Assembly: GCA_947463915.1 (NCBI GenBank)
Contig: CANHVO010000018.1
Coordinates: forward strand, 1 to 41,696
From: Planctomycetaceae bacterium
GTDB taxonomy: Bacteria; Planctomycetota; Planctomycetia; Pirellulales; Pirellulaceae
Direction: 5' to 3'
Length of the DNA stretch: 41,696 nt
The notes beneath the pieces were generated by a model. The model had not been told where the DNA came from. It ran no database searches and saw nothing but the letters and a program-made list of their open reading frames with translations. Positions within the stretch are counted from its first letter, which is position 1, and each line of letters starts with the position of its first letter. Position numbers and translations under genes: made by a program. This document shows, piece after piece, positions 23,253 to 39,981 of the stretch.

Positions 23253-24098
23253 ATGTCTCGATCCCCTACTTCTTTTAGCCGAGAAACCATGCAGTCGCAG
23301 CAACCATTGTCGGTAAAGTCCATTTGGGACGGGCACACGAGGCCAACGGCAAAAAGTTTTTTGTCACCCGAACTTGATCAGCCAAAAAACTCCTCAGCCG
23401 TTCGCAAACTGCTGATCTGCTCCAGCCCTCGAACTTCGAGTAAGCGCTTGGCGCGATTGCTTTACTCCGCAGGAGTCGGCATACCGATGGAGTATTTCAA
23501 CCCGCTTAATTTGCCGATCCTTTCTCAACGATGGAGCCAGCAACGAGGAAGTGAATTGCTCGTCGAGGATTACACATCCGAACTTGTCGCAAGGCGTTCT
23601 ATCAACGGGATCTTCTCGGCAACGATTCAATTCGGTCAGCTTGAAAAATACCTGATGAACCCGTCTGGAAAAAGATTTTTCGAAGGTGCAATTTTATTGT
23701 TTCTGCGACGAACTGATTTAGAGAAACAGGCCGTTTCCCTTGCTGCAGCTTCGTTAACCAACCATTGGGGGTTTGAGGTTCCGGAAATCGAAAACCAATT
23801 CAGTGAGAAACAGATGCGGGACGCACTGGTCGCTGCGATCGATTTGATCCATCGAGAAAACTCGGGGTGGCTGCAGTTTTTTTCAGAACTCAAGATCAAA
23901 CCGGTGGAAGTAACAAGCGACGAAGTGAACCAACAGCATTTTTCGCTGATGCAAAGAATAGCTGAAATGATGAACCTTGTTGTTGATCGGACGAAACTGG
24001 AATTGATGGCTTGCGTTGATCATCCGTATGAAGGACAACGAACACTCAAGCAAGATTTATCGCGGATGCTAACGAAGGAATCTGGGGCTTTGAATTAG
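23253..24098 (+). CDS. Stf0-like sulfotransferase
   Basis: This 281-residue protein resembles Stf0, the trehalose 2-sulfotransferase family, which uses PAPS as donor. The 5'-phosphosulphate loop is at 56-70 (CSSPRTSSKRLARLL) and is followed by the family's VGIPMEYFNP motif at 75-84. The IFSATIQFGQLEKYL segment (120-134) matches the Stf0 'K.MW.QF' strand. The 3'-phosphate site is at 150-165 (FLRRTDLEKQAVSLAA), with the Stf0-style NHW following. The expected catalytic glutamate after the loop is present in MEYF. The acceptor is likely a sugar or glycolipid; this is unproven. It converges with the GT2/dioxygenase/pyruvyl-transferase operon. The start could be ATG 23289, since the first 12 residues carry no conserved feature. 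Confidence 0.82.
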   Translation: MSRSPTSFSRETMQSQQPLSVKSIWDGHTRPTAKSFLSPELDQPKNSSAVRKLLICSSPRTSSKRLARLLYSAGVGIPMEYFNPLNLPILSQRWSQQRGSELLVEDYTSELVARRSINGIFSATIQFGQLEKYLMNPSGKRFFEGAILLFLRRTDLEKQAVSLAAASLTNHWGFEVPEIENQFSEKQMRDALVAAIDLIHRENSGWLQFFSELKIKPVEVTSDEVNQQHFSLMQRIAEMMNLVVDRTKLELMACVDHPYEGQRTLKQDLSRMLTKESGALN

Positions 24099-24146: not shown

Positions 24147-25268
24147 TCAGAACACTTCTATCGAAGTACGGTATGTCGCTCCGCCGAGGTCCGCGAACCA
24201 GCATTCGCCATCGTTTACCATATCCCATTCCAACTGATAATTTCCCGCATCTCCAGGGGCGACGAACGTGCAGAGGAACGTGAGCGACTTTCCGGTGTCG
24301 ACGGGCCGCAATACCGCAAAGCGAGGATTATCGTAACTCACCATCGAACCTTGCATATCGAGTAAATGGTACGACAGACTTAAGCGTGGCCAAGATCCCA
24401 AACAAGGCGACCAGTAATGTCCTAAATTCTTAACTTCAATTTCCGCTTTGATCGTCCCGTTCATTTCTATTCGAGTGGGAAGGTTCTCGTTTAGCAGTTC
24501 AAATCGCCAGTCAGGATGTGGAGCCACTTTCAATTCGCGAATCTCGGAATGGACCAGTCCGCTTCGCTTTTTCAATGGCGGTTTCGGATTGCGAAGGACG
24601 GTTAGTCTGCGATTCGCGTCAGTGGGTGGATGATAGTAGACTTCATCTTGTTCGTTCGCACCTGCGCGGCGGTAGAAATCCATTTTTTCTTGCCTGCGAT
24701 CAGGGGAGCAATGCAATGATTCAAAGTGCAAGATCGAAACGCGTTCTTCGTGATAGCCCAGCCCCTGAATATAGGAATCGGTATGGACCCGTGGCGGCTT
24801 CCAAAACAAGCGGCGGTCATTTCGAAACAAGCGTTTGGTCCAATTGGGATTCCAGACGGAGTCGTACAAGTATTCGCAAGGTTGTAGATTTACGATGTAC
24901 TTTCGAGGAAAAAGATAGTGCGTTGGACGCGGATCACTGAGTAACTCCGGAATCAATTCATCGAACGATTCATCAATGCTTTCGTCGTCATCTAACGAAA
25001 GGATCCAATCTCCCGTCGCATAGTCAAACCGAAGAAAGCGAACGGGAGAAAAAATCCCAGGATGGCGAAACTTGTAAATGATATCGGCATTCGCAGCCGC
25101 TACTTCGAGTGTCCTATCGTCTGAATCCGCATCGACCCCGACAACAATTTCGTCGGCGAAAGAACCAACTTCTTCTAATAGTCGCCCAAGCCGTGACTCG
25201 GAGTTTTTAGTCTGGATACTAACGGTTAATCGTGGATGCTTGGGTTTCGATCGTCTACGCAGCCACAT
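24147..25268 (-). CDS. GT2 family glycosyltransferase with C-terminal beta-sandwich domain
   Basis: The N-terminal domain (1-220 of 373) is a GT-A fold of the GT2 type. It has LTVSIQTKNSESRLGRLLEEV, then VGVDADSDDRT and the metal-binding LDDDE at 92-96, then the acceptor-side WTKRLFRNDRR. From about residue 265 a separate beta-rich domain begins (GTIKAEIEVKNLGHYW to the end), with FVAPGDAGNYQLEWDMVNDG and CWFADLG. This shape recurs at the C-termini of some bacterial glycosyltransferases and probably binds glycan. The ATG at 25268 overlaps the dioxygenase-Rieske gene by 14 bases. A longer frame to 25442 would run through that gene and is rejected. It probably adds a sugar to the same product that its neighbours modify. 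Confidence 0.85.
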   Translation of the reverse strand: MWLRRRSKPKHPRLTVSIQTKNSESRLGRLLEEVGSFADEIVVGVDADSDDRTLEVAAANADIIYKFRHPGIFSPVRFLRFDYATGDWILSLDDDESIDESFDELIPELLSDPRPTHYLFPRKYIVNLQPCEYLYDSVWNPNWTKRLFRNDRRLFWKPPRVHTDSYIQGLGYHEERVSILHFESLHCSPDRRQEKMDFYRRAGANEQDEVYYHPPTDANRRLTVLRNPKPPLKKRSGLVHSEIRELKVAPHPDWRFELLNENLPTRIEMNGTIKAEIEVKNLGHYWSPCLGSWPRLSLSYHLLDMQGSMVSYDNPRFAVLRPVDTGKSLTFLCTFVAPGDAGNYQLEWDMVNDGECWFADLGGATYRTSIEVF

Positions 25269-26586
25269 GTACACTCGCCCTGTTGGTCGCGCGCATCCAA
25301 ATATCGCCTTGTCGTTCTTCGACTTCGTACATTCGCAATCGAAGCGCCGTGCAAGAAGAAAGACCTGACTGAAGGTTGAAAGCCAGTCCGTGCGCTGGAC
25401 AAAACAGTTGCTTTTCGTCGTGAAACCCGTCCGCCAACGCAACGCCTAAATGTGGACAGTTTGCTTGGCTGGCGTGAAGTTTCGCTGAAGTTCGAATCAG
25501 CAAGACGTTCTCGTTTCCAAAGCGAACGCGGAGCTTGCCGCCTTCCGCAATTTTCACGCTCTCGCACACTCGCTTCCACTCATTGTCGTGAGAATCGGCC
25601 TCTAATTCGATCAACTGGGGGAATTTAGGTGGAACTACAGAACGATCAATAGCAGGCTCCAAATTCTCGTTGCGTTCAAATCGGAGGACCCGATCAAAGT
25701 GTCCGGCTTCGATGTTGGTGCTGGAATGCCAAAACTCTCGAGCGTAAAAGCAGCTTGTTGAGAAACGCGGGCGAACTGGATTGATGCGTGCAGAGATCGC
25801 CAATCGCGTAACGGAAGTCGTATTCAAATGGGTAGCATGCAATACTTCAGGGTTAAAGACGAGCATCTCCCCCTTCCGCAACGACATTTTTACGGGCTTC
25901 GGAAGTGGATAGCCCTCGGCAAGATAAAGGGAACGCCGATCGGGTTCGAAATCCGCATTCAGTGTGCCAGGATAGAAGACCATCGAAGCTTCTTCGGGAA
26001 CGTTGTCGACCGCCCACCACAGGTTGACACCTAACCGCGAATGTCCAGTCCACGTATCGCGATGTGCCCCGTGTGCCCAAGCAGCGGGCGGTTCGTTGTT
26101 GTGATAGGCTTTGGGATTGTAATTGGGATCGACTACCTTGCTTGCGACACTTTGCTTCCGAGTGCTTTCGTCAACCCGCCCAATACCTGGATTCTCTGCA
26201 CTGCGAGAGGCTTCTTTGGCTACCAAGTAAGGGAAATTGATCCTCAAGATGGTATAGTCATCCACAAAGAACTCATCGTCGATGCCAAGCAGTCTTCCGA
26301 TGCTGCACACCATTTCAAGCAAAGCAGGACGTAGGGTGGGCATGACCAAATCACGCAAGGGTCCAATTTGTTCGGCCGCCAACACGTTGTGCAGCAGCGA
26401 CAAACCTTGCTGCTCAAGTTCCTGACGCGAAGCAGGCCCGTTTAGCTTCTCTACCCCTTCGAAGATCAGACTTCGGGCGAGAGTCAGCACCTGCTGCTGG
26501 CGTTCGAAATCCGAGAGAATCAGATAGCTGCCCTGATCCAAAATCGAACTCAGCATTCGGCTCCAAGGTTGTTTTGATTCGATCAT
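25255..26586 (-). CDS. PhyH-type 2-oxoglutarate/Fe(II) dioxygenase fused to a Rieske domain
   Basis: The N-terminal three quarters resemble phytanoyl-CoA dioxygenase (PhyH) enzymes. The iron ligands are probably His175 and Asp177 (HRD) and His250, with Arg261 as the 2-oxoglutarate contact. The region between contains LGVNLWWAVDN and SMVFYPGTLN. From about residue 345 a Rieske [2Fe-2S] domain follows. Cys377-Pro-His379 and Cys396-Pro-Ala-His399 are the cluster ligands, in NCPHLGVALADGF and LFCPAHG. PhyH enzymes hydroxylate with electrons from 2-oxoglutarate, so an attached Rieske centre is unexpected. It may recharge oxidised iron, sense redox state, or serve a different reaction. Substrate unknown; it is operonic with glycan genes, beginning 63 bases after the pyruvyl-transferase-like gene and overlapping the GT2 gene. 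Confidence 0.85.
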   Translation of the reverse strand: MIESKQPWSRMLSSILDQGSYLILSDFERQQQVLTLARSLIFEGVEKLNGPASRQELEQQGLSLLHNVLAAEQIGPLRDLVMPTLRPALLEMVCSIGRLLGIDDEFFVDDYTILRINFPYLVAKEASRSAENPGIGRVDESTRKQSVASKVVDPNYNPKAYHNNEPPAAWAHGAHRDTWTGHSRLGVNLWWAVDNVPEEASMVFYPGTLNADFEPDRRSLYLAEGYPLPKPVKMSLRKGEMLVFNPEVLHATHLNTTSVTRLAISARINPVRPRFSTSCFYAREFWHSSTNIEAGHFDRVLRFERNENLEPAIDRSVVPPKFPQLIELEADSHDNEWKRVCESVKIAEGGKLRVRFGNENVLLIRTSAKLHASQANCPHLGVALADGFHDEKQLFCPAHGLAFNLQSGLSSCTALRLRMYEVEERQGDIWMRATNRASVHVAA

Positions 26587-26649: not shown

Positions 26650-27717
26650 CTAGGCAACTGCAGCAAGTCGCCGTCCATCGATCCGTTCTGCAAGTCGAAC
26701 AAGAGAGTCTGTTGAAACGGATCGGAATTTTTCCCATTTGGGTTGGGCTTGTTCAACAAGATCATGGAATCGATCCAGGTTGTCCATTCGTTCGCGAATT
26801 TGATCTACAGCATTCTCGGATTGAATGTAGTCGATATCCCATTCGGACATACCGACGGTCTTGATAAGGCTCTTGGCTCGTTCGTCGTACGATAGATTGA
26901 TGCTTGGTGTTCCGATTGCCAAACATGGCAAGAATGCATGTAAGCGAAAAGTAATATTGAGAGACGCTCCGCGCAACCAAGCTAAGACGCGTCGCGGGTC
27001 TTCGCTGTATAGCAGTGGAACATCCGGGAAGCCATGTGCGAACGATAAATCTTGAATGTCGTGACACAGCAATCGAACGTCATCCCCTCGTTGACGAAAA
27101 TGCTCAATAAGTCCGCGTACATCTTCCCACACTCGACCTTGAGCCCGGTATGGAATGCTCATTCTCTGAGGATTTCGAAGCGATATTAAAACAGAACCGT
27201 TTGTCGTTGTGTCCTGGGGCAATGAAGATACGATTTCACCGAGGAAAAGAGTAGGACAGCCTGAAACACCAATTCCCTTTAGCCCCATCGAAGCCAAGTA
27301 GTTCTGAGTCGATTCGTCGCGAACCAGAAACTCGCCAGCAATTCGGCGAAGCAGTGCAATTTGTTCTGGCGGCAAAGAATCGGTACGTTGAACGAGTTGA
27401 CCATCCGCCGCATACACTCGCCCAGACGACGCTCCTAGCACGAGCATCGGAACGGTCAGCGATTCCAAGGCAAACGGGTCGATCGTCAATGCACCGTTCT
27501 CGAAGATATTTCCTAGCCCGACAATCAATCCATCGGCCAATTGATTCATTTCGTAAACGCCTTTTGGCGTGAACCCTCCATCAGTTCCGGCTGAATTCAT
27601 CGTTACAAGATTCAGTTCGTCTCCAAATACGCTCCGTAACAGACATTCATGGCCAAGCGCGATCAAGGCGTTACCAATATTAGGCGTGGTTTGACGCATA
27701 TTGATCAAGGTTCGCAT
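26650..27717 (-). CDS. Polysaccharide pyruvyl transferase family protein
   Basis: The 355-residue protein belongs to the PS_pyruv_trans family (CsaB/WcaK relatives), which ketal-link pyruvate from phosphoenolpyruvate onto sugars of surface polymers. N-terminal NMRQTTPNIGNALIALG is the usual opening loop. Later come VLISLRNPQRMSIPY, LLCHDIQDLSFAHGF and the diagnostic ITFRLHAFLPCLAIGTPSIN with SYDERAKSLIKTVGM. It may equally act in another nucleotide-sugar or phosphoester transfer, since the family is broad. GGAA lies upstream of the ATG as a ribosome binding site. It is the first gene of the leftward set. The spacer upstream (27718-27927) holds a TTAGCCGA repeat arm and no clear promoter. Confidence 0.85.
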   Translation of the reverse strand: MRTLINMRQTTPNIGNALIALGHECLLRSVFGDELNLVTMNSAGTDGGFTPKGVYEMNQLADGLIVGLGNIFENGALTIDPFALESLTVPMLVLGASSGRVYAADGQLVQRTDSLPPEQIALLRRIAGEFLVRDESTQNYLASMGLKGIGVSGCPTLFLGEIVSSLPQDTTTNGSVLISLRNPQRMSIPYRAQGRVWEDVRGLIEHFRQRGDDVRLLCHDIQDLSFAHGFPDVPLLYSEDPRRVLAWLRGASLNITFRLHAFLPCLAIGTPSINLSYDERAKSLIKTVGMSEWDIDYIQSENAVDQIRERMDNLDRFHDLVEQAQPKWEKFRSVSTDSLVRLAERIDGRRLAAVA

Positions 27718-27927: not shown

Positions 27928-28641
27928 ATGCTAAAGTATCAATTCGATCAATATGTCGTCGATGGTTTTGACGAACTCGGTGCGTTTGTCTTGGTGATGG
28001 ATGGGTTTCCGCCTGAAGAAAGATATCAGCCCACAATTGATCTGCTCGAAGAGATCGGCTATCAACGGGTAGAAACGTCAGAATTGCGTGATGGCGAATA
28101 CAACATCAAGACGGCAGGTGGGGATGGAACCGAAGCTTCGATGAAGTCATTCTTCTGTGCATTCACAATGGGAAGATACTTGATTCAATACCAGCCGTCG
28201 AATCGGTTCATATTACGCGGAACGAGCTGCAAGCCGCACCGGCCCGAGTCTGACTTTCGTTTTGCCGACTGGTATCCTGTTAAGGGATCATCGCCTCGAG
28301 AGAGGGCAAAGAAGATTGAGGATCAACTGGCCGACGATTTCCCGAATGCGGCGATGGCGGCCCAGTTTTTGTATGATCTTGGCTTTGCTAGGAGCAACAC
28401 GTACAAAAAGTTGCCGAAGAACACGTACTTCGTCGCATCCCGACATGGCGACGGGCAACCATCCGGAATCGTATTTCGCGGCGCATCCAAGACCTATTTC
28501 TACGACTACTTCGAGGACGAGCGGTACGAAATGGGTTCGAGCGGCCTATTGAAAGACTTCTGCCCGACGAAACGACAACGCGAAGATTCCATGTCCATGG
28601 TGTTTTCTCAGTTCCCATCGCTAGGATTGCTCGATGAATAG
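27928..28641 (+). CDS. Hypothetical protein, 237 residues
   Basis: I do not recognise a family. The product is soluble, with no signal peptide or membrane helix. It begins MLKYQFDQYVVDGFDELGAFV and has a mixed alpha/beta pattern (PTIDLLEEIGYQRVETSEL, then KPHRPESDFRFADWYPVKG). A helical segment NAAMAAQFLYDLGFARSNTYKKLPKN near residues 153-178 and an aspartate/tyrosine-rich YFYDYFEDERYEMG follow. Codon use looks similar to the neighbouring genes. It begins about 40 bases after a dispersed repeat arm and is 47 bases from the next small gene on the same strand. It is divergent from the pyruvyl-transferase operon. No function is proposed. Confidence 0.7.
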   Translation: MLKYQFDQYVVDGFDELGAFVLVMDGFPPEERYQPTIDLLEEIGYQRVETSELRDGEYNIKTAGGDGTEASMKSFFCAFTMGRYLIQYQPSNRFILRGTSCKPHRPESDFRFADWYPVKGSSPRERAKKIEDQLADDFPNAAMAAQFLYDLGFARSNTYKKLPKNTYFVASRHGDGQPSGIVFRGASKTYFYDYFEDERYEMGSSGLLKDFCPTKRQREDSMSMVFSQFPSLGLLDE

Positions 28642-29415: not shown

Positions 29416-30861
29416 CTATGCAATCAGATCTCGCACCACGTTTCCGTGCACATCGGTCAGTCGATAATCGCGGCCCTGGAAACGGTAGGTTAGCTTGGTG
29501 TGGTCGAAGCCCAGCAGGTGCATCCATGTCGCTTGCAAGTCGTGGATATGGACCGGCTTGTCCACGATCGAGAAACCGAGTTCGTCCGTGCTTCCGTAGT
29601 CGAAGCCACCCTTGGCACCTCCACCGGCCATGAACATGGTAAAGCAATCGGGATAGTGATCGCGGCCCAGCTGAGCACCCGCTGCCGTTCGGCCTTCCCG
29701 GAACGGAGTCCGACCGAACTCGCCACCCCAGATGACCAGCGTATCAGCCAAAAGCCCACGTTGATCCAAGTCCTTGATCAATGCAGCCACGGGGCGATCC
29801 ATGCTCTCGCACTTCTTAGTTAGACCATCGCGAATATCTTCGGCTGGACCTGTACCGTGAAAATCCCAGCCCCAATCAAAAAGTTGCACGTACCGTACTC
29901 CCGATTCGACCAGTCGTCGCGCTAACAAGCAATTGTTTGCAAGGCTGGCCGCCCCGGCTTTGGCGCCGTATGCGTCGAGCGTTTCTTGCGTCTCCTTGGT
30001 GATGTCCATGACCTCGGGAACGCTGGTCTGCATACGGTATGCGAGTTCGTATTGCGAAATGCGAGTTTGCGTTTCTGGATGGCCAAGTTCTGCGGCTTGT
30101 ATGGCATTGAGTTCGCTGAGCGTGTCCAACGTCTTGCGTCGCAGCTTGCGATCCATACCTGCAGGATCCGACGCGAATAAGACCGGATCGCCTAGCGAAC
30201 GGCATTGAACACCTTGAAAAACGCTCGGAAGGAAACCGCTACCGAACGAGCTTCGGCCGCCGTTTGGCTGTACTCCGCTACTGATCAAGACGACGAAGGC
30301 TGGCAAATTTTCGTTTTCGCTACCTAAGCCGTACGATACCCATGAACCAAACGAAGGCCGACCGCTACGTGGCGATCCTGTGTAAATCAGCAACTCGGCT
30401 GGAGCATGATTGAACTGGTCGGTGTGCATGCTGTGAACCAAACAAAGATGGTCGGCCACCCCTTGCAAATGTGGCAAGCAGTCGGAAAGCAAGACACCGG
30501 ACTTTCCCGACGCAATGAATTTATGCGAGGTCCCGAGGAGCTTGGGCACCCCGGTTGTAAACGCAAACTCTCTACCTTTTAGCACGGAGTCCGGCGCATC
30601 TTGGCCATTGAGTTCTATCAGCTTCGGCTTGTAATCGAACAAGTCCAAGTTAGGTGGCGACCCCGTCATGTGCAAGTAGATCACCCGCTTTGCCTTTGGG
30701 GCAAAGTGTGCGACTTTGGCTGCAAGCGTATCACTCGCGGTAAGCGAAGCAGGGTTGCCTATGAGGTTGGACAAGGCAAGCGCACCAACGCCAGTTGACG
30801 CTTGGCCCAGAAAGTAGCGCCGCGTTCTAAGGGCCAGTTGTTGTTCGATGACAGAATTCAT
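29416..30861 (-). CDS. DUF1501 family Tat-exported protein
   Basis: This 481-residue planctomycete protein belongs to DUF1501, a family with an alkaline-phosphatase/sulfatase-like core. The N-terminus carries a twin-arginine signal (TRRYFLGQASTGVGALALS). The core shows KRVIYLHMTGSPPNLDLFDYKP, HSMHTDQFNHAPAELLIYTG, a late TLVIWGGEFGRTPF and HYPDCFTMFMAGGGAKGG. The C-terminus, with DLQATWMHLLGFDHTKLTYRFQGRDYRLTDVHG, is diagnostic of the family. No phosphatase or sulfatase activity can be claimed, since family members are uncharacterised as far as I know. It starts 15 bases after the PSCyt/DUF1553 gene stops. Such pairs are common in planctomycetes and are probably co-exported. Confidence 0.93.
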   Translation of the reverse strand: MNSVIEQQLALRTRRYFLGQASTGVGALALSNLIGNPASLTASDTLAAKVAHFAPKAKRVIYLHMTGSPPNLDLFDYKPKLIELNGQDAPDSVLKGREFAFTTGVPKLLGTSHKFIASGKSGVLLSDCLPHLQGVADHLCLVHSMHTDQFNHAPAELLIYTGSPRSGRPSFGSWVSYGLGSENENLPAFVVLISSGVQPNGGRSSFGSGFLPSVFQGVQCRSLGDPVLFASDPAGMDRKLRRKTLDTLSELNAIQAAELGHPETQTRISQYELAYRMQTSVPEVMDITKETQETLDAYGAKAGAASLANNCLLARRLVESGVRYVQLFDWGWDFHGTGPAEDIRDGLTKKCESMDRPVAALIKDLDQRGLLADTLVIWGGEFGRTPFREGRTAAGAQLGRDHYPDCFTMFMAGGGAKGGFDYGSTDELGFSIVDKPVHIHDLQATWMHLLGFDHTKLTYRFQGRDYRLTDVHGNVVRDLIA

Positions 30862-30876
30862 AGTGTTGTTTCGCGG

Positions 30877-33800
30877 TTACGGGGTCATCAAAAATTCATC
30901 GAGGTTTAGTACCACGTTGCAAATCGTAGTCCATGTTGCAAGCTCAACGGCATCGATACTTGGAGGCAACGGGCCGATAGGATCGGTTGCAAGTTTGTTT
31001 GCCCGATCCAACTCGGTCGAAAGTTCGGTTCGCGTTTCATGAAGCAGTTTCAACATGGCTTCGGTTTCGCGAGCGATCGGACGGCGCGAGAGAGTCAGTT
31101 CGAAAATGCGTTCGATTCGCTCCTCCTCTGTTGCGGTGGGCAGATCGTAAAGCACGATGCGTCTCGCAAGTCCCTGAGCAGCTTCCACGTAAGCAGGATC
31201 ATTGAGCGTGACGAGGGCTTGCAAGGGGGTGTTGGTTCGATCTCGTTTCAATACGCAGACTTCTCGATTCGGGGCATCGAATGTAGCCATCGAAGGGTAC
31301 GGATTGGAACGACGCCAGAGGGTGTAGAGTCCTCGACGGAAGCGATCTTCCCCTTTGCTCGTGTCCCAGTCGGTCTTGCCACCAAAGGCGGCCGTTAAGC
31401 CGAGGGAGGGTTGCGGCGGCCGAGCGGGTGGACCGTAGAGACGTTGAGAGAGCAGGCCAGCGGATGCGAGGGCCATGTCACGGACCTGTTCGGCAGTCAC
31501 TCGAAAACGCGGACCACGAGAAACGAAAACGTTGTCCGGATCCTCTTCGTAACGCTTCGGTGAGACGTACGATCGTTGCTGGTAGGCTGCAGAAAGAACG
31601 ATGTTGCGAATGAAGCGTTTGGTGTCCCAGCCGTTGCGAATGAGATCCATCGCCAAAAAGTCGAGCAATTCTGGATTGCTCGGCAAGTCACCCTGTGAGC
31701 CAAACTCCTCGCTGGTTCGAACGATGCCGACACCGAAGAAGTTCTCCCAATACCGATTGGCAATGACGCGAGCTGTGAGTGGGTTGTCGGATTGCATCAA
31801 CCATCGAGCGAACTCCAATCGGTCCATTTTTGGAGCACTGCCGCTCGCGTTCGTCGGCTTCCAAGCATGAAAGGCTTTCGGCACATCGGCGGAGACGAGA
31901 TCGCCTTTGACTTTGTAATTGCCACGAATCTGAACGTGTGTTTGTCGAAGTTTGTCCGGTTCTACTTCGCTCAGAATGGGAACGGTGGTTATCGGCTTGA
32001 TTTCAGCCAGCTTCTTGCTAAGCGAATCACGTGAGATACGAAGCGGTTGCCTACCGGGTGCAATCGTGGAAACGTAAAACAAATGCAACGAATCTTGATC
32101 GGCCTTGGAGAGAGACACGGGATCTTGAGAAAGGAGTCGGACGATGTTGGACGGCAAGCCAATCATGCGCTCGGCGCGATCGTCCGTTGTAAAGCCGATA
32201 CCGAAACTGGCCAAGACGGCTCGGCGGTACGTTGATTCGAACTTGAGCGTCAAACGCAGCGTCGCTCCGCCTGCCCACGCTTTTTCTTGGACGAGTTCTT
32301 TTAGTTTGCTAGAGTCGAGAGAGAGGTTCAGTTGATGTGGTTGATTGACGGCTCCGCCTACTGCCCACCCCGATTTGGCATCCGCATCGATTGCATTGCT
32401 TGCAGGAAAATTCTCTTGGGAGTAATCAGCGTTCGCGAGTTTGATTGGCAACATGATAGCAGGTTGAATGTCGATGGATTGACTTGCTTTGGGCTTATCC
32501 AATTGCGATTCCCAAAGAGTCTTTCGGTCCTCACTCAAGATGGATAACTTCGCGCCGTCCAGTCGGCCGCCAACGTCTCCATCGGTTCGATTCCAAACGA
32601 CGATTTTGTCGATGGTGACCGCTTTTCCGAGGTCCACTTCCCACCATGGATTGCTGCTAATGGCGGTGTGCGTGGTTGAGTTGTCGGGATACTTTCCTGA
32701 TGTGTTGCCATCGACGGCCCGTTCTGCTTTGCCTTCGAAGTCGGTGGTGCTTTGCGTGGCAGCGGCACCTTTTGAAACAACTTCATCGCGTGAAAAAACT
32801 TGCACTTCAGCGAGCGAAAGGATTTTGTTTTCACCAAACAATTCGATGCGAACGAATCTTCCGCTGGTCGATTGTTCGGCGGGGTTGAATAGGGATGCCG
32901 AGACGTTGGTCAGCACGAAGTTGCCATCGCCGATGGCGGCTCCTCCGTTTGGCAACGAAGGATCGGGGATGCTTTGAATTTGAAGTCCCGATAATGTATC
33001 GACGGGCACATTGCTTGGGACGGCCCATTCAAAAGTGTAGGTATCTTTGTCGGCGACGGTATCCACTTTGAGATTGCCATTTTCTTGGATTGCAATCGAT
33101 GATTTCGAAGTCGCAGCGGCGGATTCAAGTTTTGCGGGCTGCCATAGAATAGGCTCGCGAAGCGTTTGAGCCCAACCGAGTTGTTCAGGAAGAAGCGACT
33201 CGTCCGGAGTACCCAACGCTAACTCGACTTTGGAGAGTTCTTTTTGCCATTCTTGCTGATCGCGGCGTTGTTCGTGGGTATACCATTTGAGGGTTGGGCT
33301 CTCGTCACCTCGGTCCGCGTCTTTGGTTTGATTGAGAATAGCGAAGACTTGAAAGTACTCTTTTTGTGTGATCGGATCAAATTTGTGGGTATGGCATTGA
33401 GCGCATCCCATTGTGACTCCCATCCAAACGGCCATGGTCGTATTCACTCGGTCGATCACGGCAACGTTTCGAAATTCCTCGTCGTTCGTCCCCCCTTCGT
33501 TATTGGTCAACGTATTTCGGTGGAAGGCAGTGGCTACGAGTTGTTCATCTGAGGGGTTGGGGAGCAGGTCGCCAGCAAGTTGTTCGATCGTAAACTGATC
33601 GAATGGCATTCCGTCGTTGATGGCTTTGATAACCCAATCTCGATAGGCCCAAATGGTTCTAGGTGGATCGTCTGCATAGCCAGCTGAATCAGCGTATCGA
33701 GCCAGGTCTAGCCATTTGCGGCCCCAGTGTTCACCGAAGGCAGGTGACGCCAACAGCTCGTCGACTAGTCGCTCATAAGCCAATACCGTCGTGTCGGATT

Positions 33801-34428
33801 GAAATGCCTTTTGTTGCTCGAGGGTTGGCGGCAGGCCTGTTAGATCGAGTGAAAGGCGGCGGAGCAAGGTGTTGCGGTCAGCTTTCGGCGTAGGGGCCCA
33901 TCCCCTTTCTTCGAGCTTTTTCAAAATGTGCAAATCGATTGGTGAGCCTTGCCAATCGGGATAGAGATGCATCGAATCGCTGACCTCGAGTTTCGAGTCT
34001 TTGATTTGATCGAACGACCAATGTTTGGTGTATTCAGCTCCAGACGCGACCCATCTTTTGAACAGGTCGATTTCACGTTCCGTCAGTTTGGCACCAAAAT
34101 GAGGCGGCGGCATTCGCTCTGCTTCATCGGTGGAAGTGATCCGTCGAATCATTTCGGACTCTGAAAGGTTTTTAGGCACGATAGCTTTGGCGCCGGATTC
34201 GGCCGGGGCCGTAGCTAGCGAGAATTCGTGCAAACGCAATCCAGATTCAACATGAGCTTCATCAGGGCCGTGACAAGCGAAACAGCGATTCGAAAGGACA
34301 GGTCGGATTTCGGTTTTGAAATCAACGGCTGCTGCTGATTCAGGCGAATCGCATTCACCGAATTTGCCATAAGAGAATAGCAGTACCGTAACCAAAACAA
34401 GCTGAGAGGGAGGGAACGTGAGTCGCAT
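30877..34428 (-). CDS. PSCyt1/DUF1549/DUF1553 protein with F5/8-type discoidin domain
   Basis: With the ATG at 34428 the product is 1183 residues with a signal peptide (MRLTFPPSQLVLVTVLLFSYG). Domain order is a planctomycete cytochrome module with CFACH at 49-53 (PSCyt1), DUF1549 (DLTGLPPTLEQQKAF, ARYADSAGYADDPPR), a middle sugar-binding-like insert, and DUF1553 (NPLTARVIANRYWENFFG, RDMALASAGLLSQRLYGP, NTPLQALVTLNDPAYVEAAQ). The insert holds a discoidin domain (ATQSTTDFEGKAERAVDGN, then NPWWEVDLGKAVTIDKIVVW) that would bind carbohydrate. A second CxxCH-like site, CAQCHTHKF, lies in DUF1549. A longer frame to 34788 crosses the Wza-like gene end and is rejected. The partner is the DUF1501 gene. 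Confidence 0.93.
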   Translation of the reverse strand: MRLTFPPSQLVLVTVLLFSYGKFGECDSPESAAAVDFKTEIRPVLSNRCFACHGPDEAHVESGLRLHEFSLATAPAESGAKAIVPKNLSESEMIRRITSTDEAERMPPPHFGAKLTEREIDLFKRWVASGAEYTKHWSFDQIKDSKLEVSDSMHLYPDWQGSPIDLHILKKLEERGWAPTPKADRNTLLRRLSLDLTGLPPTLEQQKAFQSDTTVLAYERLVDELLASPAFGEHWGRKWLDLARYADSAGYADDPPRTIWAYRDWVIKAINDGMPFDQFTIEQLAGDLLPNPSDEQLVATAFHRNTLTNNEGGTNDEEFRNVAVIDRVNTTMAVWMGVTMGCAQCHTHKFDPITQKEYFQVFAILNQTKDADRGDESPTLKWYTHEQRRDQQEWQKELSKVELALGTPDESLLPEQLGWAQTLREPILWQPAKLESAAATSKSSIAIQENGNLKVDTVADKDTYTFEWAVPSNVPVDTLSGLQIQSIPDPSLPNGGAAIGDGNFVLTNVSASLFNPAEQSTSGRFVRIELFGENKILSLAEVQVFSRDEVVSKGAAATQSTTDFEGKAERAVDGNTSGKYPDNSTTHTAISSNPWWEVDLGKAVTIDKIVVWNRTDGDVGGRLDGAKLSILSEDRKTLWESQLDKPKASQSIDIQPAIMLPIKLANADYSQENFPASNAIDADAKSGWAVGGAVNQPHQLNLSLDSSKLKELVQEKAWAGGATLRLTLKFESTYRRAVLASFGIGFTTDDRAERMIGLPSNIVRLLSQDPVSLSKADQDSLHLFYVSTIAPGRQPLRISRDSLSKKLAEIKPITTVPILSEVEPDKLRQTHVQIRGNYKVKGDLVSADVPKAFHAWKPTNASGSAPKMDRLEFARWLMQSDNPLTARVIANRYWENFFGVGIVRTSEEFGSQGDLPSNPELLDFLAMDLIRNGWDTKRFIRNIVLSAAYQQRSYVSPKRYEEDPDNVFVSRGPRFRVTAEQVRDMALASAGLLSQRLYGPPARPPQPSLGLTAAFGGKTDWDTSKGEDRFRRGLYTLWRRSNPYPSMATFDAPNREVCVLKRDRTNTPLQALVTLNDPAYVEAAQGLARRIVLYDLPTATEEERIERIFELTLSRRPIARETEAMLKLLHETRTELSTELDRANKLATDPIGPLPPSIDAVELATWTTICNVVLNLDEFLMTP

Positions 34429-34540
34429 GAGGATGCTTGGGAGGGGCCTTGATAGCGTTAGGAGCAAAAAAGGTAGACCATCATTATAGCAACTGCGAAT
34501 GTCGAATACGCCATGAAATTGCCAGATCGCGCATGGGAAC

Positions 34541-34571
34541 AAAAAAAGGGCTCTCGTTTCCGAAAGCCCTT
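34541..34571 (-). terminator. Rho-independent terminator with GAAA tetraloop
   Basis: On the minus strand a 10-bp stem (AGGGCTTTCG with CGAGAGCCCT, one G-T wobble) closes a GAAA loop and is followed by seven Ts (34541-34547 on the plus strand). It lies 35-64 bases beyond the stop of the Wza-like gene, as expected for ending that transcript. The plus strand also ends in a T-run (34570-34574), so it may work in both directions. Confidence 0.88.
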
Positions 34572-34604
34572 TTTCTATTGATTCGCTGGAATTGGCAAGC
34601 TCTA

Positions 34605-35996
34605 CTAGCGTTGTTGGAAAAGCTGCGTGATTCCGTAGGTGAAGAACGCGAACATTCCGAAGTTGACGGCCTCTTCTACGGGCTTGTATCTGAGGATCAG
34701 CGTATCGCCTGGCTGAATGAGAGGTCGTTCTCGCGGGTCCTGAGCTGCTTTGGCTAAGTCGACTGCAATGGTGATTTGACCGTTGCATGGTGTCTTTCGC
34801 AGGATGAAGAGCTCACCTGGTGGAATCGTGTACTGCTGAATCCCGAATCCGCCACCACCAGCGCCACCATTGGCTTGACTTCCAATTCCTTGGCCTGCGA
34901 TACCCATCGCACCCAGGACATCCAGGTCATAGTCACGAGGAATCAACCATTCTCCGCCGTGAAGTAACCCACCAGTGTAGAAAACTTCTGCTTCACGCGA
35001 CTCGATGTAGACCACGTCACCTTCATCAAGAACAATGTCTTCTGTTCGGAAGGCTGGGATGACTCCAGCTGGTAATCGCATTGGAATCTTGAGAATGCTT
35101 GGGTCATCAGGAATTGGTGGTGGGCATCCGCAAGGATCAGGATTGGCATAGTACTGAGCATAGAACTGCTGAATGAACTCATCCCGCTTCTTTTGGTCAG
35201 CTTTACCTGCTCGAAGGATCTTGATCTCGTTCTTTGCATTGATTCCTGGCAAGCCACCAGATGCCATCAAGGCATGGAGAACGTCGTTCTTGTAAGCGTC
35301 AAGCTTGATCATACTGCCAGCAGCACTTTGGTCTGAGCCGCGTAGGTACGAGCCCTTTGCACCTCCGCCACCTTGCTGGGACTGTCGTTCCGCACCGACG
35401 TCTTGCCGCACAACAACAACATTGTATTGTCGTTCTTTCAGCATGGTAACGATAGGGTGAAGCTTTTCAGGATTGGTGATCACGCGAGCATCCAAGTATG
35501 CTTTTCGAATGAGCTCGGTGACTTGCTCCAGCGTCATCCCTTGGACCTTGACAGGTCTTATGGAGGGAAGCGCAATGGTACCATTCTCTTGAACAACGAT
35601 GGGATACCCAATCGATGGATCAAGAGTACTGTCTTCCTTGGGGAAGTTCACCGGTGGTGGCTCAGGAACCTTATCCGTGGACGAATACGGCAGTACGCCT
35701 TCGATATAGATACCGAGAATGTCACCCTTGTCGATCAAGTATTGACGAGGAGGTTCCTGTGTCAATCTCGATGGATCCAACGGTACCAGATTGTTCTTGG
35801 AGGCCGCGAGGAACTGTGGTGGCAATCGGCGGACCGGGATGCCAGCTAGGGGTTGAGTCAATGAAGTGCAGCCGACATTCATTGCGCCTGCAGCCATCAA
35901 ACTCGCCAGAGAGAACGATTTGAAGAGGCGAGTCAAGATGCGACCCCCCTTTTGTGTTGATTGGACGAGCGTCATTGGATTCCATTCCATAGACAT
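34605..35996 (-). CDS. Wza-like polysaccharide export outer-membrane lipoprotein
   Basis: This is an outer-membrane polysaccharide export (Poly_export/SLBB) protein of 463 residues. The ATG at 35996 has GAGG 8 bases upstream; the frame runs on to 36251 with no protein-like content. A signal with a lipobox-like NVGC places the acylated Cys at 43, with a non-ideal -3 residue. The export domain opens with YLIDKGDILGIYIEGVLP. An SLBB-like segment follows (GTIALPSIRPVKVQGMTLEQVTELIRKAYLD), then a second export-type region (ILDEGDVVYIESREAEVFYTGG). The C-terminus (EAVNFGMFAFFTYGITQLFQQR) fits the Wza helix that spans the outer membrane. A Gly-rich insert (ANGGAGGGGFG) is a local oddity. It probably forms the exit pore for the polymer made by the divergent genes. 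Confidence 0.88.
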   Translation of the reverse strand: MSMEWNPMTLVQSTQKGGRILTRLFKSFSLASLMAAGAMNVGCTSLTQPLAGIPVRRLPPQFLAASKNNLVPLDPSRLTQEPPRQYLIDKGDILGIYIEGVLPYSSTDKVPEPPPVNFPKEDSTLDPSIGYPIVVQENGTIALPSIRPVKVQGMTLEQVTELIRKAYLDARVITNPEKLHPIVTMLKERQYNVVVVRQDVGAERQSQQGGGGAKGSYLRGSDQSAAGSMIKLDAYKNDVLHALMASGGLPGINAKNEIKILRAGKADQKKRDEFIQQFYAQYYANPDPCGCPPPIPDDPSILKIPMRLPAGVIPAFRTEDIVLDEGDVVYIESREAEVFYTGGLLHGGEWLIPRDYDLDVLGAMGIAGQGIGSQANGGAGGGGFGIQQYTIPPGELFILRKTPCNGQITIAVDLAKAAQDPRERPLIQPGDTLILRYKPVEEAVNFGMFAFFTYGITQLFQQR

Positions 35997-36108
35997 GATA
36001 GTTACCTCGTTCGCCATTTGGCGTAGATACTTGATGAATGCAGTTTGTATTTGTATTTGTCTGTGCTTTCGCACATTCAAAAAAATTTTGAAGCGAATAC
36101 GGTTTGGT

Positions 36109-36816
36109 TTACTGAGGCGAATAAATGATTTCTGCGGGCCCCTGTTCGATAGAAACAGGAATTCCCGATGCGTCTCCAATGTAACTCTTCTCTCCCCCGT
36201 AGATCTCCGTCGGGAACCCTTGCGTCGACACAATTGCTTGTGGTCGGCCATTGGGAACAGCCGATTGTGCGATAGGATACATTCCGCTGCTGGACGTATT
36301 TAGCAGGCCGTGTTGAGCGTACTGCTGTTGAATGCTCGAAGAGGTCTGGATTTGAGTCCAGTTCCCAATCCCATCTTCTTCCGCAGCCCGCGCTCCATGT
36401 GGAAATCCTGAATACCATGCTGCCACGCGTGCTTGCCCCTCGCACGACTGGTACTTCCACCCCCAGTATTCACGAGGAGGGAAGGCTGGCGTGCAACCTG
36501 ATCCGCCATCAGCCACTTCCATGTAGCCTGCTTTGAATCCCTGCGAGAATTCTCGCAGATATTTTTCATTGCAAAAATGGTGCTTTCGGCGATGCCAAGC
36601 TTTCGCTGCCGCCGACTTGTTTCGATGCCCCATCATGGTCTCGTTCCAAAACCCGTTGTATTTCCAGGTATTGTTCAAGCCCGTGAAAGCTGAGCATCCG
36701 GCGAACGGCACGATCGCAGACGAAGCGAGCAATAACAAAGACAATCGTTTCTTAACAAGCTCGCGCCAGCCACGCTTTTTATGCGAATTTGCTGTATCAA
36801 TACGTTTGACGGACAT
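36109..36816 (-). CDS. Lipoprotein beside the Wza-like gene, function unknown
   Basis: The 235-residue product has a signal peptide and a good lipobox FAGC (Cys41), so it is probably anchored in the outer or inner membrane. GGGGGG lies 6 bases before the ATG. The mature part opens with NNTWKYNGFWNETMMGHRNKSAAAKAWHRRKHHFC, then has a Gly/Tyr/Trp-rich portion (EYWGWKYQSCEGQARVAAWYSGFPHGARAAEEDG). It ends in a Ser/Gln/Gly-rich, disordered tail. Similar small lipoproteins occur beside planctomycete export loci in my recollection, but I know no assigned function. It is 112 bases upstream of the Wza-like gene on the same strand and probably helps that pore. Confidence 0.78.
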   Translation of the reverse strand: MSVKRIDTANSHKKRGWRELVKKRLSLLLLASSAIVPFAGCSAFTGLNNTWKYNGFWNETMMGHRNKSAAAKAWHRRKHHFCNEKYLREFSQGFKAGYMEVADGGSGCTPAFPPREYWGWKYQSCEGQARVAAWYSGFPHGARAAEEDGIGNWTQIQTSSSIQQQYAQHGLLNTSSSGMYPIAQSAVPNGRPQAIVSTQGFPTEIYGGEKSYIGDASGIPVSIEQGPAEIIYSPQ

Positions 36817-37161: not shown

Positions 37162-39981
37162 ATGTCTCCGATGCCAATTCGAGGGGAAGTAAAAACTGAA
37201 AAGCGGCTGAGTCTATGGGCTCCCTCACATTCAAGGGGCACCGAAAAACCTTGGCAGGCAAGCGACGTTTCTGAATGGCTCCTCCGATTCGGTGTTTTGG
37301 CTTTGATCGTCGCATTGCCGTGGCACTTCGGTAGCGTTCATTGGTATTCGCAATACGCTCTAGGATGGTCAGGAGTTGCACTCTGTATCGGAGTCGTTTT
37401 GCATTGCTTCGTCTGTTTTCTCAACAAGTCAGGAAACCTCAGTGTTCCGTGGTTGACTTGGGTGTTCATTGGACTTGGATTAGCGGCTTGGGTTCAATCT
37501 AGGCCAGCATTTACCTGGCAAGGGACTGAGCTAGCGCCCCCCTCCGTTCAAATGCAACGCTGGGCGCTAGGACTATCTGAAGCACCAAACGCAGCTCAAA
37601 GCTCGATGCCTATAACGGAACGTTCCAACCCTGATGACTCTTCCATAGGAGACTTGCCATGCGATCTCAAGGGCGTGCCGGAATCCGAGCGTACTTTGGC
37701 ATGGAGCATTGAGCCTTTGCATACACGCGGGGCTGCCATGTCTCTTTTCTTGTGTGGACTATTTGTATGGATTGGACGAATTGTCTTTTCTGATTCACAT
37801 AAACAGCTTTGGCTTTTTGGTACGTTAACTTTGGCTGGGATTTTGATTTCTTGCGTGGGTATTCAAGGAGCAATCTCATACAATTCGATCAACTTCCTGG
37901 GATTGAGAACAGGCTCGTCGTTTGCAACTTTTGTTTCGAAGAACTCTGCAGGCGGGTTTTTCAATATCTGTATTGCAGGTTGTTTAGGGCTTTTGGGGTG
38001 GACGTTTCTCAATACGCCTCGATCGAGCAAAGACATTCGTTATCGATTTCCTGACAGGAGCGTTGTTTCCAAAATACGAGGATTTGCTGAGGACACTTTG
38101 GCGGATCTCAACACGGCACAAATCGCAACCATGCTGTGCTTGATAGGTATTGTGTCAGCTCTATTGATTAGTCAATGCCGAGGAGCTGCAGTCAGTGCCT
38201 TGGGGGCGATTCTTATCGCCTCAACAGTGGCCAATTCCAAGAGCAACAGTCGTGGAAACTGGGCGATTGCCGTTGCTGTTGTCGCCATTTTTGTCACGTC
38301 TATGATCGTCTTTCAAGTGGATGAAAAAGCCTATGGCAGGCTTGAGAGTCTTTCCGAAATAAATATCGAGAGTGAACTGAGGCAGGGGAGAGCCTATATT
38401 TGGTCTATCGCATGGAAGTCCATGGCCTTCTATGGTTGGTTCGGAAGCGGACTCGGAACATTCCATTTCGCCTATTTGCCCTTCCAACAACCTTCTTCAC
38501 CTGGTTGGTTTTATCATGCCGAAAGTCTTTATGCTCAGTGTGGAGTAGAGCTTGGTTACTTTGGCCTATCGGTTCTGATGGTCGCAATCGCAGCTCTCCT
38601 TTCGAACTTGCAAAAAGCACCTCCACAAGAGAATTGGGGACTTGCCTTCCCCTCCAAACTAGCCGGGACTTACTTGGTCATCAGTCAGGCGCTCCATTCC
38701 TTCGTTGACTTTGCAATCATTTTACCAGCGCTCTTTGTGCCAGCTTGTGTACTCGTTGGGGCTGTCCAAGGGGCTCTATTCAACGCACAAATTACTCCCG
38801 TACGAAAGAGAAGTCGGAGCGGTAGCAAAGAACCAATCAAAGTACTAACGCCAAAGAATTCAAGTTGGCTTCGCAATGGAGTCATCGGCGTCGCAGTCGC
38901 GACAGGCTGTGGCGTAGCCATCGTGTCGCTTTTGGAATCAGTGAAGTCGCTGGCTCGCTCGGATGCAATGGTTGATTGGTCCAAAGAAGAAGAGAAAAAG
39001 TCTCTTGAAGTTCAGTCGCCAGATCGTACAGCGGAACTGGCAAAGATATGGGCTCGCGATACATTAGAGCTGAAGGAAAATCCTATCGCGATGGGGGCGT
39101 TTGCAGATTCCCTGTTATTCGAATACCGAATTGAACAAATGACTGCAACTCAGCCTACAGGTGCATGGGCTGCGTTTTGGAGCAACACATCTCCCGTCTT
39201 GCTCCAGATGGCGTTGGACAAGACTGAAGACCGAATGAAAAAAGGCCAAATCATTGAGTCGGTCGGGGGCGCAAAAGCGATAGAGACTTTAAGTCGTTCT
39301 GCCAATTGGTATGCGATGGGGCAAACCAAATCGCCCCTCGATTGGCGACTCCTGTGGGGAAGATGTTTGACCAACACCCAATGTGACCGAAGCGAGATGG
39401 CGAGATTATTGCCAGCAAGCCTGACTCTTGCTCAGCATAATGCTCAGCAATTGTTGGCTGCTGCGGTGATCTACCGTGACAAAATCGATCAAGTTCAGTT
39501 TGAAGCGGTCTTGGTGCAAGCCATGAAGACCAATCCGGGCTCCGCTATCAATGCAGCAAAACTTCTAGCATTGGAACGCAAGGACAATGAGGTTCCGATA
39601 ACCATGTTTCCACAGCGATATGACATTTTACAAGCGATCGCATCTGAGACATTTACCAAAGTCAATTTTCCAGAAACGCACCGTTTGCTTTGGACGAAAG
39701 CAGCGGAACTAATTGTCCTGGCTCCCATGACACCGCCACGACGAGAAATTTGGCTCGCAGACTGTGCCATCGCCCTCGAAGACGTTGATAAGGAAATTGA
39801 CCATCTTCAAAACGCCATCAGATTCGAATCGAACGACTTTAAACTCCATTTACGCCTAGCGAGTCGATTGATTGAACTTGGCAGAGCTGAGGAAGCAAAG
39901 AAAGTACTCTTGGCACTTCAGCGGATAGATCCGACAAGCAGTGACGTGAAAGCGATTGCTGACCGAATTTCGAAAATTTGA
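37162..39981 (+). CDS. O-antigen ligase/Wzy-like polymerase with TPR-like C-terminal region
   Basis: The 939-residue membrane protein starts with several hydrophobic helices (LLRFGVLALIVALPWHFG, GWSGVALCIGVVLHCFV, WVFIGLGLAAWV). The Wzy_C/O-antigen-ligase core follows, with SLSEINIESELRQGRAYIW then AFYGWFGSGLGTFHFAY and the family's HAESLYAQCGVELGYFG near 450-470. The periplasmic loop with conserved Arg and His typical of these enzymes is present. After the last helix (about 570-600) come some 330 residues of helical repeats of TPR type (AIALEDVDKEIDHLQNAIRFE, LRLASRLIELGRAEEAKKVLLALQRI). TPR-tailed members are known in related bacteria. The probable role is joining repeat units or ligating glycan at the periplasmic face. 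The start could also be the ATG at 37171. Confidence 0.82.
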   Translation: MSPMPIRGEVKTEKRLSLWAPSHSRGTEKPWQASDVSEWLLRFGVLALIVALPWHFGSVHWYSQYALGWSGVALCIGVVLHCFVCFLNKSGNLSVPWLTWVFIGLGLAAWVQSRPAFTWQGTELAPPSVQMQRWALGLSEAPNAAQSSMPITERSNPDDSSIGDLPCDLKGVPESERTLAWSIEPLHTRGAAMSLFLCGLFVWIGRIVFSDSHKQLWLFGTLTLAGILISCVGIQGAISYNSINFLGLRTGSSFATFVSKNSAGGFFNICIAGCLGLLGWTFLNTPRSSKDIRYRFPDRSVVSKIRGFAEDTLADLNTAQIATMLCLIGIVSALLISQCRGAAVSALGAILIASTVANSKSNSRGNWAIAVAVVAIFVTSMIVFQVDEKAYGRLESLSEINIESELRQGRAYIWSIAWKSMAFYGWFGSGLGTFHFAYLPFQQPSSPGWFYHAESLYAQCGVELGYFGLSVLMVAIAALLSNLQKAPPQENWGLAFPSKLAGTYLVISQALHSFVDFAIILPALFVPACVLVGAVQGALFNAQITPVRKRSRSGSKEPIKVLTPKNSSWLRNGVIGVAVATGCGVAIVSLLESVKSLARSDAMVDWSKEEEKKSLEVQSPDRTAELAKIWARDTLELKENPIAMGAFADSLLFEYRIEQMTATQPTGAWAAFWSNTSPVLLQMALDKTEDRMKKGQIIESVGGAKAIETLSRSANWYAMGQTKSPLDWRLLWGRCLTNTQCDRSEMARLLPASLTLAQHNAQQLLAAAVIYRDKIDQVQFEAVLVQAMKTNPGSAINAAKLLALERKDNEVPITMFPQRYDILQAIASETFTKVNFPETHRLLWTKAAELIVLAPMTPPRREIWLADCAIALEDVDKEIDHLQNAIRFESNDFKLHLRLASRLIELGRAEEAKKVLLALQRIDPTSSDVKAIADRISKI

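Follow-up and report, generated by a model that had tools for sequence, protein, structure and literature searches.

The stretch analysed here, referred to below as the window, is a contig of 41,696 nucleotides from a Planctomycetaceae bacterium (GCA_947463915.1, contig CANHVO010000018.1). On its minus strand, at 25255..26586, lies a gene for a single protein of 443 residues, in which a PhyH-type 2-oxoglutarate (2OG) oxygenase domain is followed by a Rieske iron-sulfur domain. The open reading frame (ORF) starts with ATG and continues for 443 codons without an internal stop, and the plus-strand reading of the same positions is broken by stops. Pfam places PhyH (PF05721) at residues 163-261 (25804..26100, minus strand; 43.2 bits against a curated cut-off of 22, E 7.1e-11) and Rieske (PF00355) at residues 336-408 (25363..25581, minus strand; 50.7 bits against 20.3, E 1.7e-13), the latter being of the ferredoxin type according to Pfam and fold matches. 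An initial annotation of this DNA, which gave no strand and was silent on the adjoining genes, on the ferredoxin type of the Rieske domain and on the His-to-Cys ligand variants of the relatives, had proposed such a two-domain protein, and the profiles agree with it, as neither family was rejected. PhyH and two Rieske families are the only ones above the Pfam cut-off. In the case of NCBIfam, all matches stay below cut-off, with Rieske-bearing models aligning to the C-terminal part and TIGR04324 to the PhyH part. The window's own genome holds six PhyH and six Rieske matches, and the two domains occur together only in the fusion protein.

The PhyH-Rieske fusion is genuine and conserved. It recurs, its ligands are conserved, its halves seem to be co-inherited and its gene cassette is kept in half of the loci, and the initial view of a natural and intact unit therefore holds.

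Recurrence and history of the fusion

When GTDB contigs were scanned with the window protein, four near full-length relatives were found (390-424 of 443 residues, best-segment identity 44-47%). These are L002 from Anaerolineae, L003 from Solirubrobacterales, L004 from the alphaproteobacterium SO-S41 and L005 from Candidatus Eremiobacterota. L004 lies in a record titled complete genome (AP024629.1); L002, L003 and L005 come from metagenome-assembled genomes (MAGs), on contigs 9 to 27 kb long, for which mis-binning is possible. The homologue set comprises 12 genomes, the window's included. The profiles used were built from members that were later found again, so that these E-values are partly self-matches, and the genome searches scored only a few first-look candidates per genome.

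At E <= 1e-20, the PhyH-half profile matched 3 of 396 genomes in the window's order (G000, G644 and G437, the window's own included) and, in the class to which L004's genome belongs, 5 of 289 (L004's included). Only the member's own genome was matched in the phylum of L005's genome (1 of 149), in the class of L002's (1 of 298) and in the class of L003's (1 of 199). A wider PhyH profile (E <= 1e-12) matched 2 of 5 genomes in the order of G1444, G1444 included, and in a further search 1 of 1, the query genome itself. All 12 proteins from genomes matched by the PhyH-half profiles contain a Rieske domain, and Pfam matches to PhyH and Rieske (E up to 1) were seen in 11 of the 11 homologue rows scanned, cut-offs being shown for the window only. 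When the window protein itself was the query, 392 genomes of its phylum returned only the window at 1e-20, and ten of 60 relatives (own genome included) had a match at 1e-8. Two of the ten are the window and the fused G437 protein, and in the other eight genomes only the Rieske region matched. Altogether, PF05721 and PF00355 are found joined in 11 further genomes. The spread covers genomes of four named phyla, three of them represented by short MAG contigs, in addition to that of the window. Such a rare and patchy distribution suggests horizontal transfer.

Three scans of viral contigs yielded no relative, a phage collection searched with one member, that of L043, gave none either, and plasmid searches with three members gave no place covering 80% of the query. 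A phage or plasmid origin was therefore rejected, as these searches gave no relative of sufficient coverage. The best plasmid match of the window protein, in Halorussus, is a Rieske protein in which PhyH gave no match.

A frame error or misassembly that brought two genes together could also give the appearance of a fusion, and the window genome is indeed a draft of 618 contigs, with three of the relatives on short MAG contigs. However, the ORF is uninterrupted, the same two domains stand in the same order in 11 other genomes, including the complete-genome record of L004, and the motif spacings described below are constant. This explanation was rejected, its probability being negligible.

Trees were used to trace how the two domains came together. 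On the Rieske tree, one branch (96/94) separates the 12 fused domains from 14 others found in the fetched loci, and this branch appears in 92% of 200 bootstrap trees. Additionally, distances between the PhyH parts and between the Rieske parts are correlated (Mantel r = 0.77, p = 0.0001, 12 proteins). With all 12 fused domains in one clade, a single joining event is suggested as the simplest reading of these sequences. An unfused PhyH homologue of 345 codons is encoded on an Embleya linear plasmid (L047:7824-8858) and keeps the PhyH motifs by eye (the Arg, and Thr or Ser at +2). On the PhyH tree, which has flagged long branches, it groups with two fused proteins (93/96), so that the fused state needs two changes rather than one; loss of the Rieske domain in Embleya would explain this placement. 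Downstream of the Embleya gene are ORFs that by eye resemble a glycosyltransferase and a sulfotransferase.

Metal ligands and fold

The alignment of the 12 proteins shows no variation at His175, Asp177, His250, Arg261, Cys377, His379 or Cys396. At position 252, 11 proteins have Thr and one has Ser; at position 399, ten have His and two (L004 and L005) have Cys. The invariant residues and His399 each stand where the initial annotation had placed them. On the minus strand of the window, His175-x-Asp177, the first two ligands of the predicted 2-His-1-Asp iron site and the same in 12/12 homologues, are encoded at 26056..26064. The third ligand His250, Thr252 and the 2OG-binding Arg261, identified from the alignment and from a weak match to human PhyH (2a1x), are encoded at 25804..25839, and the cluster ligands Cys377-x-His379 and Cys396-x2-His399, identified from the alignment, at 25390..25458. 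The facial triad HxD...H and the 2OG-binding Arg are present in 12/12 proteins. The Rieske ligands follow CxH...CxxH in the window and nine others and CxH...CxxC in the remaining two of the 12. In the 11 proteins examined for spacing, the steps from His250 to Arg261 (11) and from His379 to Cys396 (17) are constant, and the step from His175 to His250 ranges from 73 to 75.

These patterns bear on the idea that the Rieske fold is a structural or oligomerisation module, with no role beyond keeping the protein together or binding a partner. Faster divergence of the Rieske part would fit such a role, since identity between the window and L002 and L003 is 30 and 42 % in the Rieske part against 53 and 53 % in the PhyH part, but three cluster ligands are invariant and the fourth is swapped only for another metal ligand across 12/12 proteins, where loss would otherwise be expected. 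A purely structural module is thus very improbable.

Fold comparisons gave different pictures for the two halves. Among solved structures, the sequence profile of the PhyH half matched human PhyH (2a1x) weakly, with an E-value of 0.72 at best, and with His250...Arg261 aligned. When the model of this half was compared for the double-stranded beta-helix fold, its best matches were of the PhyH type, again with 2a1x first (E 9.5e-6), but with template modelling (TM) scores of 0.42/0.50, a root-mean-square deviation of 10.2 A and low predicted local distance difference test (pLDDT) values at the iron site. Human PhyH/PAHX, SnoK, HygX and SyrB2 are among the best fold matches. With these PhyH-type oxygenases (PF05721) the fusion has in common the HxD...H triad, the HxT/S...R motif and the Pfam match; it differs in its distance from the solved members and in its additional C-terminal Rieske ferredoxin module, which is not known from those four enzymes. 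A viral fold library returned 2OG-type matches with low TM-scores. The Rieske half, which is usable in the full-length model, matched the target 4nbc_F in Foldseek (E 6.5e-8, TM 0.83). By fold and by sequence it comes closest to Rieske ferredoxins that serve oxygenases as electron donors, with CarAc at the top. It shares the C-x-H-x16-C-x2-H motif, the fold and sequence with CarAc, BphA3 and the naphthalene dioxygenase ferredoxin. Those are separate small electron-delivery proteins, whereas the window protein has its module in one chain with a 2OG-type oxygenase.

Membership in other known groups was considered as well. Rieske non-haem iron oxygenases have another catalytic fold, and their Rieske domain comes first in the chain. 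The fusion shares with members such as CntA the combination of a Rieske cluster and a 2-His-1-carboxylate iron in one chain, but its Rieske domain is C-terminal, behind the 2OG-type site. Assignment as an alpha subunit of this group was rejected, since the catalytic part is N-terminal and of PhyH type, and NCBIfam models of the Rieske-oxygenase type match the Rieske part only. The CMP-Neu5Ac hydroxylase CMAH is a sugar hydroxylase that likewise bears a Rieske cluster, and its catalytic domain is metallo-beta-lactamase-like, not of the usual Rieske-oxygenase type; membership here was rejected too, as the window protein has no metallo-beta-lactamase-type Pfam match at E up to 10 and has PhyH instead. 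TIGR04324 (sporadic carbohydrate cluster 2OG-Fe(II) oxygenase, SpoChoClust_2) is the only NCBIfam 2OG-oxygenase model that matches the PhyH half. Membership was rejected at 30.1 bits against a cut-off of 150, the match covering positions 113-215 of the 248-position model; the same below-cut-off match is seen in the window and in six of seven other members scanned.

The two CxH...CxxC domains (L004:7899-9209 and L005:553-1836) are natural candidates for a three-Cys-one-His cluster. This Cys399 pair forms one clade on both trees (100/98 for Rieske, 99/100 for PhyH). In an engineered archaeal Rieske ferredoxin, as summarised in PMC2946596, the corresponding His-to-Cys swap retained a low-potential [2Fe-2S] cluster. 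By this analogy the natural swap would be of a tolerated type, which argues that the cluster is kept, and the L004/L005 branch may be regarded as a natural counterpart to the engineered cluster.

The same swap could be read differently, namely as tuning of a redox gate or sensor. The cluster would then sense the redox state or oxygen and reactive oxygen species and switch the oxygenase, or would dock the oxygenase to a membrane electron carrier, without feeding the iron. Redox gating was among the options raised initially, and both the low potential of the matching archaeal swap (PMC2946596, in the text available), by which the potential may be tuned, and the cytochrome b561 genes adjoining two members (see below) can be cited for it. 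However, the potential is not fixed by the ligand set alone, because mitoNEET, with three Cys and one His in another fold, is given a potential near 0 mV in the available part of PMC9737848, and fold and sequence of the Rieske half are those of electron-donor ferredoxins of oxygenases. Thus, a gate or sensor appears unlikely.

Gene neighbourhood

Neighbours in this section that were named without a family search were assigned by eye. In the window, the fusion gene stands between two other minus-strand genes, a polysaccharide pyruvyl-transferase-like gene upstream (26650..27717; PF04230, 7.6e-17) and a family 2 glycosyltransferase (GT2) gene with a C-terminal Ig-like region (24147..25268; PF00535, 1.5e-7). 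The first is separated from the fusion gene by 63 bases, and the likely ATG of the second (25268) falls within the last codons of the fusion gene. Spacing is similarly short in relatives, with 6 bases in L002 and 4-base overlaps in L003. Converging on this cassette from the plus strand is an Stf0-type sulfotransferase gene (23253..24098; PF09037, 5.5e-11). The Ig-like region of the cassette GT2 proteins (24147-25268 in the window) gives weak PF16158 matches below cut-off.

The pyruvyl-transferase-like and GT2 genes adjoin the fusion in 6 of the 12 loci: the window, L002, L003, L004, L005 and L023. L023 is the sole cassette locus outside profile building, and its two partners match at 4e-152 and 3.6e-157, respectively. 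As no other polysaccharide genes are seen by eye among its listed ORFs, the trio there looks self-contained. In L024, a more distant pyruvyl-transferase-like gene is nearby (5.6e-7), with no GT2 match. The Stf0-type sulfotransferase accompanies three of the six cassette loci, the relatives in L003 and L004 having only 24-33% identity; the contigs of L002 and L005 end near the cassette, so that its presence cannot be judged there.

Outside the six cassettes, the fusion lies among sugar-related ORFs in most loci. In the case of L043 (901-10679), it is found within a pseudaminic-acid-type cluster, in which PseC is above cut-off and PseG-like and PseI-like matches are below, the PseI-like one being a fragment. 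A second, unfused PhyH gene follows directly after the L043 fusion gene. In L045, the fusion is among ORFs resembling glycosyltransferases by eye. L042, L052 and L024 have ORFs of GMC-type oxidoreductases next to the fusion (Pfam on L042 only, no more than weak NCBIfam matches in L024, the rest by eye), and a DAO-type FAD enzyme adjoins it in L044. Cytochrome b561 (PF01292) is encoded directly downstream of the fusion gene at L042:6597-7355 and L052:7126-7887, where it is a possible membrane electron donor.

A polysaccharide export protein (Poly_export) and a Wzy_C protein are encoded 8-13 kb from the fusion in the window (34605-36251 and 37162-39981), which places the window in or near an exopolysaccharide region. 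Other features include a 237-residue ORF without a Pfam match (27928-28641), upstream of the cassette and divergent from it, and DUF1501 and PSCyt1/PSCyt2/PSD1 genes (29416-34788), from whose presence a planctomycete source was deduced.

Electron supply and proposed function

Taken as a whole, we tentatively read the fusion protein as a glycan-tailoring PhyH-type 2OG oxygenase whose Rieske module feeds the active-site iron. The parts of this reading differ in strength. Glycan tailoring and dependence on 2OG are both probable. Electron transfer from the Rieske centre to the iron, in this direction, is slightly favoured.

In this mechanism, the Fe(II) ligands of the PhyH half would be His175/Asp177/His250, and Arg261 would bind 2OG. 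This half would hydroxylate or otherwise oxidise a sugar or lipid-linked glycan intermediate that is handled by the glycosyltransferase and the pyruvyl-transferase-like enzyme encoded next to it. The Rieske half, with its cluster presumably assembled, would be supplied with single electrons by a general reductase of the cell, although in one subgroup the cytochrome b561 encoded nearby may be the donor, and would hand them to the active-site iron, most likely turning Fe(III) from uncoupled turnover back into Fe(II). In other 2OG enzymes, ascorbate returns Fe(III) to Fe(II). Electron delivery to the PhyH iron is favoured because the Rieske half resembles ferredoxins that feed oxygenases and the PhyH half resembles 2OG oxygenases, and Fe(III) rescue, which the initial annotation had named as self-repair of oxidised iron, is its most likely role. 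The transfer may run between subunits, as in Rieske oxygenases. In CntA, according to the available part of PMC7948474, the cluster-iron distance is 44 A in one chain and 12.2 A across subunits; as the distance is short only across subunits there, a monomer model could not settle the transfer.

Several observations weigh against this reading. In the full-length model, pLDDT is below 50 at residues 133-181, the stretch that holds the iron-site residues His175 and Asp177, and at 212-226, and residues 155-181 and 214-226 still stay below 50 when the PhyH half is modelled alone. The 20 window ORFs scanned with Pfam include no reductase family, and none was recognised in the cassette. L024, although in the same subgroup as L042 and L052, has no cytochrome b561 downstream, where a glycosyltransferase-like ORF is seen instead by eye, and the neighbours of L044 in view include no clear sugar genes. 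Finally, the Embleya homologue has no Rieske domain in its ORF or within about 8 kb on each side. This is evidence that the Rieske module is not absolutely needed in every relative, and, as one homologue is without it, suggests that the PhyH half could work as an ordinary 2OG enzyme.

The Embleya protein also bears on whether 2OG is used at all. It is conceivable that the cluster supplies the electrons for oxygen activation and that the PhyH fold simply replaces the usual catalytic domain, given that a His-His-Asp iron is found in Rieske oxygenases too (CntA, PMC7948474) and that the Rieske module is found in all 12 genomes matched by the PhyH-half profiles. Against this stand the 2OG-binding Arg, invariant in 12/12, the retained Thr or Ser at +2, the same motifs by eye in the unfused Embleya homologue, and a cassette in which no reductase gene was recognised, so that chemistry without 2OG is quite improbable. 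In a related proposal, the protein would be an electron-fed oxygenase, with its own Rieske centre supplying the PhyH iron in each cycle, oxygen activation partly or wholly free of 2OG, and the cluster retuned by the three-Cys-one-His set in one branch; we regard this as rather unlikely. A reaction not described for either class, which the initial annotation had raised, found no positive evidence, as the 2OG-binding Arg and the Thr/Ser at +2 are retained and one homologue is Rieske-free. A glycan-tailoring 2OG oxygenase with Rieske-supplied electrons remains our tentative preference.

The PhyH-Rieske architecture is apparently undescribed. Searches of open-licence papers directed at the fusion gave no description of it, and searches of the same literature on ferric reactivation of 2OG enzymes and on the cassette gene set gave no paper on either. 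Within that literature, the initial impression of an uncharacterised architecture stands. PMC2922099 mentions operons in which an oxygenase-cupin gene is accompanied by a Rieske protein of its own, an arrangement different from the present fusion. A 2025 perspective on Rieske oxygenases states, in the text available (PMC12445004), that no self-sufficient Rieske oxygenase system has been identified. Being without a reductase domain, the fusion protein is not shown to be such a system.

The conserved cassette points to an undescribed oxidised glycan. For oxygen activation at a His-His-carboxylate iron, textbooks treat 2OG oxygenases and Rieske systems as alternatives, and a natural fusion of both makes it testable whether an iron-sulfur electron supply can be connected to a 2OG enzyme, and what for. 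In 2OG biocatalysis, the fusion could give a genetically encoded replacement for ascorbate.

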